IMG/VR virus record: IMGVR_UViG_3300035074_000089
Location: 1-41,704 of that record
Strand: one strand, 5' to 3'
DNA length: 41,704 bases
Source of the DNA: a virus
Notes under the pieces: model-generated
What the model saw: only the letters and a program-made list of their open reading frames with translations
Told to the model about the DNA's origin: nothing
The model's database searches: none
Shown: positions 13,567 through 14,123 of the stretch, in pieces
Numbering within the stretch: position 1 is the first letter of the stretch
Layout: each line of letters begins with the position of its first letter
Translations under genes and position numbers: made by a program

Positions 13567-13722
13567 TCAGGCGAGGCCGGCGGCTTGGAACGCCGCCAGG
13601 GCCTCGAGATATTCATCATCCGAGGGCGCGTCGCCGATCGCGACGCCGCGCGAGCGCGCGAAGCCGCGCATCATCGCGTCGAATTCGGCGAGCGTTAACA
13701 AATCCACCTCGCGCGGACTCAT
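13567..13722 (-). CDS. tail assembly chaperone second part (rcc01693-like)
   Basis: 51 aa if started at ATG 13722, which overlaps the stop of the upstream chaperone (ATGA). It has the features of the small rcc01693/TIGR02216 family: MSPREVDLLTLAEFDAMMRG followed by an acidic DDEYLEAL segment. The family's characteristic motif begins before this ATG (LSPFYELAGALR), and those residues are encoded in the same frame upstream. They would be made only by a -1 frameshift from the upstream gene, giving a fusion of about 185 aa covering 13567-14123. Both a free form and a fusion may exist. Confidence 0.75.
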   Translation of the reverse strand: MSPREVDLLTLAEFDAMMRGFARSRGVAIGDAPSDDEYLEALAAFQAAGLA

Positions 13723-14123
13723 GCGCAGGGCGCCGGCGAGCTCATAGAAGGGGGAGAGGTCGCCGGCGCGGCGCTCGCTGCCCCCTCCCCCTCGTCTTTT
13801 CCCGGCGCGACGCCCATGACGCAGGCGTTCACGACGTCCGCGGCGAGCTGCAGATGCGCGCCCTTGGGCGCCGGATCGAGCGCGCGCATGACGATGGCGG
13901 TCGCCTCGGGCTCGCTGGCGCCGCCGCCCATCAGGCCGAGCCGGACGGTCTCGCGAATATCGTCGTATCGCCACTGCATGGTGGAGAGACGCACGAGAAC
14001 CGCGGCGATCCCCGCACCGCAAAGGCGCTCCAATTCGGCGATCTCGCCGAGCCGCAGCTCGAGCTTGCGGCGGCGGCCGGCGAGATCGCGATAGACCGCG
14101 GTGTGAAGCTGCGGCTCGCTCAT
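13719..14123 (-). CDS. tail assembly chaperone, GTA gp10-like
   Basis: 134 aa. The N-terminus (LHTAVYRDLAGRRRKLELRLGEIAELERLCGAGI, residues 6-39, key pattern LxLGEIAELE) matches the gene transfer agent gp10 family (PF11836). It lies between major tail protein and tape measure, the fixed place of G-type tail chaperones, which coat the tape measure during tube polymerisation. Its start overlaps the major tail protein stop by 4 nt. The last 25 residues, after VAPGK, are low-complexity (Ala/Ser/Pro), as expected if the functional alternative is the frameshifted product. Confidence 0.85.
   Translation of the reverse strand: MSEPQLHTAVYRDLAGRRRKLELRLGEIAELERLCGAGIAAVLVRLSTMQWRYDDIRETVRLGLMGGGASEPEATAIVMRALDPAPKGAHLQLAADVVNACVMGVAPGKDEGEGAASAAPATSPPSMSSPAPCA
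13797..13803 (-). other. predicted -1 ribosomal frameshift site GGGAAAA
   Basis: On the minus strand the upstream gene reads CCG GGA AAA GAC, so the heptamer G GGA AAA is in the X XXY YYZ register needed for tandem slippage. A -1 shift enters exactly the frame of the downstream chaperone ORF, which is open from here to 13567. Lambda G/GT uses GGGAAAG at the same place in its tail operon. Downstream GC-rich sequence could provide a stimulatory structure; this was not folded. Confidence 0.75.

Follow-up and report, generated by a model that had tools for sequence, protein, structure and literature searches.

The window, by which we mean the whole analyzed stretch of 41,704 nt (a 41.7-kb IMG/VR virus record), very probably carries a programmed -1 frameshift of the lambda G/GT type, by which two tail assembly chaperones would be made from one start. 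Judging from sequence, we put the probability of this reading at roughly 0.94. Comparative support comes from the frame relation between the two chaperone domains, the slip site, the absence of start codons, covariation in a hairpin, and the gene order. That ribosomes shift here, how often they do so, and what the products bind is inferred.

Probable slip site and chaperone domains in the window

The features of the locus are listed in Table 1. The 0 frame is read across the heptamer as CCG-GGA-AAA, exactly in the X_XXY_YYZ register, and the -1 frame is open from the heptamer to its stop codon at positions 13569-13567, with a translation that begins KRRGGGGSERRAGDLSPFYELAGALRMSPREV. A -1 shift at the heptamer yields a fusion of 109 + 76 = 185 aa. 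From the heptamer up to the conserved core of the second domain (domain 2), the -1 frame of the window contains no ATG, GTG, or TTG. The internal ATG of this frame lies 3' of predicted helix 1 of domain 2 (residues 17 to 25, ahead of the internal Met at residue 28) and is probably not the main start of the domain. The original prediction had placed an in-register GGGAAAA near the end of the gp10-like gene, a shift from it into an rcc01693-like open reading frame (ORF) giving a fusion of about 185 aa, and the motif of that ORF upstream of its only ATG; the codon reading, the open frame, and the position of the ATG within the domain agree with it on each of these points. The heptamer GGGAAAA occurs three times in the entire window, against 2.7 expected, so its count is uninformative by itself and the case for a frameshift rests on comparison with relatives.

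Table 1. Features of the tail chaperone locus (positions in the window)
Feature	Position	Strand	Remarks
Major tail protein (gp9-like)	14581-14120	minus	phrog_1407 + phrog_13196; presumed T-domain partner by lambda analogy
gp10-like tail assembly chaperone gene	14123-13719	minus	0-frame product, 134 aa, G-like; PF11836, phrog_8985, fold match
Slippery heptamer G_GGA_AAA	13803-13797	minus	in register; conserved in relatives
-1 frame extension, rcc01693/TAC_6-like T domain	13797-13567	minus	76 aa + stop; phrog_18467 E = 3.7e-8
5' arm, stimulator stem	13793-13782	minus	first pair 4 nt past heptamer; fold + covariation
3' arm, stimulator stem	13759-13748	minus	encodes LSPF of -1 frame; fold + covariation
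Sole ATG of -1 frame	13722-13720	minus	internal to domain 2; overlaps gp10 stop (ATGA, 13722-13719)
Tape measure protein	13555-11408	minus	phrog_10574 E = 1.4e-18; presumed G-domain partner by lambda analogy

The genes run in the order major tail protein, gp10, T-like domain, and tape measure, followed by DUF2460, gp84-like, and NlpC/P60 genes. The short gp10-like gene therefore lies between the major tail protein and tape measure genes, the position of a G/GT-kind gene. Closest to the window are a copy in Methylosinus sp. Sm6 that resembles a prophage (81% identity) and, at 75%, an IMG/VR contig; GGGAAAA is kept in register in both and also in a 41% relative. The Methylosinus copy is a second PF11836 copy, situated beside a separate GTA-type locus.

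The gp10-like protein belongs to PF11836 (Phage_TAC_11/GTA-gp10; 72.7 bits against a cut-off of 27.8, E = 3e-20), a name that already puts the family among the TAC families. Its predicted model (pLDDT 87) matches the fold of viral proteins including tail assembly chaperones, with weak matches to N15 GT and to a protein of Caulobacter phage Kronos; comparison with the PDB, by sequence and by fold, gave no match. Domain 2 of the window scored 14.2 bits against PF09550, below the cut-off of 23.4 (20.8 bits in the relative L107), and an NCBIfam search with it gave no match, TIGR02216 included. The GTA relatives L062 and L010 pass both PF09550 and TIGR02216 ("rcc01693 family protein"). By its position and a shared motif, domain 2 of the window is probably homologous to rcc01693, at a score below the formal family cut-off, and by analogy it would be a domain that acts like T. 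In public annotation of named phages, domain 2 appears as a hypothetical protein of ~50 aa that starts from the internal Met (L006:2836-2988 and L009:2842-3006). Because of such calls, family models such as PHROG 18467 are without its N-terminal part.

Frame, heptamer, and stem across window-type loci

We drew pairs of the two genes from viral contigs and genomes and scored both domains with profiles. Of 100 window-type pairs, 98 had domain 2 in the -1 frame relative to gp10 and two had it in the 0 frame, as a fused ORF; the +1 frame did not occur. This bias is not proof alone, since ATGA and TAATG overlaps also yield it. Start codons were therefore checked separately, and almost no window-type locus has one between the slip site and domain 2. 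In-frame heptamers in the 100 pairs were GGGAAAN (62), AAAAAAN (25), and CCCAAAN (4), with none in 9. One of these three types was in frame within the overlap of ~19 codons in 87 of 97 loci, against ~0.2 expected, and in the upstream domain of the same 97 pairs they occurred at none of 9,080 codon positions; since the loci are related, these counts cannot be taken as independent events, but the type of heptamer does vary between relatives. It is this conservation in register among relatives, and not its presence in the window, that lifts the heptamer above chance. The comparison of homologous pairs proposed as a check with the original prediction, covering both the heptamer and the overlap frame, thus came out in its favor.

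Two further arrangements were seen at these junctions. In seven of the nine heptamer-less relatives (gp10 ends of L006, L009, L114, L134, L177, L178, and L182), G_GGG_GAR lies near the corresponding place and is a possible G-rich slip site. Both chaperone domains are fused in frame in one ORF in L007:2432-3004 (phage RHph_X2_26) and L206, and likewise in the GTA loci L051 and L265.

Stimulatory RNA structures are common at -1 frameshifts, without being required. The window has a 12-bp stem that begins 4 nt after the heptamer (-32 kcal/mol), and this hairpin taken singly is only moderately unusual given the GC content (z = -1.86). Folds of 65 nt across 89 relatives had a mean z of -1.17, and in 53 non-redundant loci hairpins folded from their own arms were more stable than those with swapped arms (-23.0 versus -20.0 kcal/mol; Wilcoxon p = 3.5e-7). 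For a covariation test on 52 non-redundant loci, the heptamer served as the anchor of the 5' arm and a conserved protein column as that of the 3' arm. One stem register stood out, that of slip+7..+15 with anchor-2..-10, in which 80% of positions were paired; shuffling gave 65% (sd 1.5), and none of 2000 shuffles reached the observed value. Compensatory exchanges included C-G (32) for G-C (9) and A-U (24) for C-G (13). Across window-type loci, the stem starts about 4 to 7 nt downstream of the slip site. An Rfam search returned nothing above chance. RNA folding downstream of the heptamer was another check proposed at the outset; a covarying stimulator stem is present there, and together with the conserved heptamer and frame it supports the proposed parallel with lambda G/GT.

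The pair could instead be two separate genes, the second being expressed by re-initiation, coupled to termination of gp10, at the ATG overlapping its stop, with the heptamer incidental. The window does contain the ATGA overlap (13722-13719), and GTA relatives such as L062 combine an ATG overlapping the gp10 stop with an intact domain 2. However, 56 of the 97 window-type loci are without a start overlapping the gp10 stop, and the overlapping starts that do exist are mostly located 17 to 28 residues into domain 2; only four have an SD-like motif. Re-initiation at the internal ATG would delete predicted helix 1 of domain 2, and it leaves both the in-frame heptamers and the covarying stem unexplained. 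Given the loci without a start, the internal position of the others, and a helix that precedes the Met, re-initiation is not the conserved mode, and we consider it very unlikely for the window.

AAAAAAN-type runs can slip during transcription, and such a run is present in 25 of 100 relatives. Transcriptional slippage that adds or removes a base, in place of ribosomal frameshifting, is nevertheless highly improbable here: the window has A4 only, most relatives have GGGAAAN, and a downstream stem at fixed spacing is a feature of ribosomal stimulators. Just as improbable is a decayed or mis-sequenced single gene in which a point indel split an earlier fusion ORF, for which the in-frame fusions (L007, L206, and the GTA loci L051 and L265) could be a precedent, as independently assembled sequences agree: 98 of 100 loci show the -1 arrangement, and the heptamer is conserved and the stem covaries.

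With a programmed -1 frameshift, the majority of ribosomes would terminate at 13719 and release the short gp10-like protein. A minority would be delayed by the hairpin and move back from GGA-AAA to GGG-AAA at 13803-13797, which would yield the 185-aa fusion with the rcc01693-like domain. If the products act as gpG and gpGT do in lambda, the short one would coat the tape measure protein, and the rare fusions would recruit the major tail protein through their T-like domain.

GTA loci: separate genes, fusions, and a different, probable slip signal

The original prediction had extended the same mechanism to the GTA gp10 family. This holds in part: many GTA-type loci carry candidate slip signals, but a Rhodobacterales RcGTA-type locus has separate genes. 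In that locus (L062), gp9 matches Rcc01691 over its full length (E = 9e-73), and the second chaperone gene is complete and separate, its ATG overlapping the gp10 stop. An own ATG for the second chaperone, overlapping the gp10 stop as ATGA or TAATG, was observed in L061, L062, L064, L078, L085, L087, L089, and L091; the mode of expression has thus changed within the family. GGGAAAN is found in some GTA-type loci elsewhere in Alphaproteobacteria.

The GTA loci of the bacterial family of Methylosinus have another signal at the gp10/rcc01693 junction (set of L010, L012-L057, and L213-L272; gp9 of L010 matches Rcc01691 with E = 1e-46). An NNC codon is followed by a CCN proline codon in 95 of 104 of these loci, and 90 of the 95 use CCT (CCU), a codon that accounts for merely 12 of 118 proline codons in their gp10 domain. 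A_AAC_CCN is present in 57 loci, nearly all with CCU, so that A_AAC_CCU is the commonest form. At none of the 95 N_NNC_CCN sites is the -1 frame closed by a stop codon, and at 40 of them no start codon precedes the FPW motif. N_NNC_CCU often stands just before the stop. Some GTA loci also contain CCCTTTC, which we discounted as a slip site, since encoding PFPW in the -1 frame dictates these bases.

Initial 65-nt folds of the GTA junctions gave no signal because the partner arm is farther away; a longer segment revealed the stem. The octamer GCCGCRGG is located 5 nt past the N_NNC_CCU site, and 52 of 94 loci have its reverse complement no more than ~120 nt downstream, whereas none has it upstream. 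The resulting long-range stem of ~10 bp pairs GCCGCAGGNN with NNCCTGCGGC 74 to 116 nt downstream (arms GCCGCAGG/CCTGCGGC at the L010 junction), and its 3' arm falls where the -1 ORF encodes VLRL. When the partner arm was anchored on the protein, one register alone paired (85% versus 37 to 55%). Watson-Crick pairing of the stem was 72%, compared with 62% (sd 1.4) after shuffling (0 of 2000), with the compensatory pairs GCCGTAAA/TTTACGGC, GCCGCAAG/CTTGCGGC, GCCGCAGAAC/GTTCTGCGGC, and GCCGCAGGCG/CGCCTGCGGC. Segments that contain the partner arm had a mean folding z of -4.0, and the stem was part of the minimum-energy structure in 83 of 93.

It is likely that the Methylosinus-family GTAs make their second chaperone by a -1 frameshift at N_NNC_CCU, followed by a 5-nt spacer of constant length and the ~10-bp covarying stem, with other GTA lineages using GGGAAAN, separate genes, or fused genes. 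We infer this frameshift function from the nucleotide sequences.

Relation to known systems and implications

The lambda G/GT frameshift is established, as is its conservation in phages with long tails, and G_GGA_AAG, C_CCA_AAG, and A_AAA_AAG are highly shift-prone in E. coli (PMC5009743). As predicted for the window, lambda gpG/gpGT and its HK97-like counterparts shift by -1 on a heptamer of the G_GGA_AAR type, close to the end of a short gene that lies between those for the major tail protein and the tape measure, and their longer form adds a second domain. The window differs from lambda in its protein families (PF11836 and rcc01693/TAC_6-like) and in its conserved 3' stem. Among alphaproteobacterial phages, the Caulobacter phages phiCbK and Colossus have a chaperone frameshift at AAAAAAC/GGGAAAC (PMC3556154), likewise a shift of -1 ahead of the tape measure gene; the likeness noted here is one of arrangement. 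A frameshift is also mentioned for Rhodobacter phages (PMC8601537).

The products of RcGTA g10 (Rcc01692) and the rcc01693 gene are called tail chaperones 1 and 2 (PMC11409702), and they share their domain families and gene order with the window. They differ in that the two genes are separate in the RcGTA-type locus L062, where an ATG overlaps the gp10 stop, whereas in the window domain 2 is not preceded by a start codon. The same 2024 study handles g10 and the gene of the second chaperone as distinct, and no frameshift was found in its text (PMC11409702). We found no published report of a GTA frameshift in the literature searched, which covered a minority of subscription journals. The probable frameshift of the window is missing from current annotation, and its kind is already known from lambda; the Methylosinus-family GTA signal may be a new variant, apparently unreported.

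The gp10/rcc01693 pair is now annotated as two genes, or its second gene is truncated or missed, and the frameshift would correct this in a large phage family and in many GTAs. It would also account for the persistence of an ORF without a start codon and tie the phage family and the GTAs to the tail-length machinery of lambda. The GTA variant would be a recoding signal under selection in a domesticated, host-encoded element.
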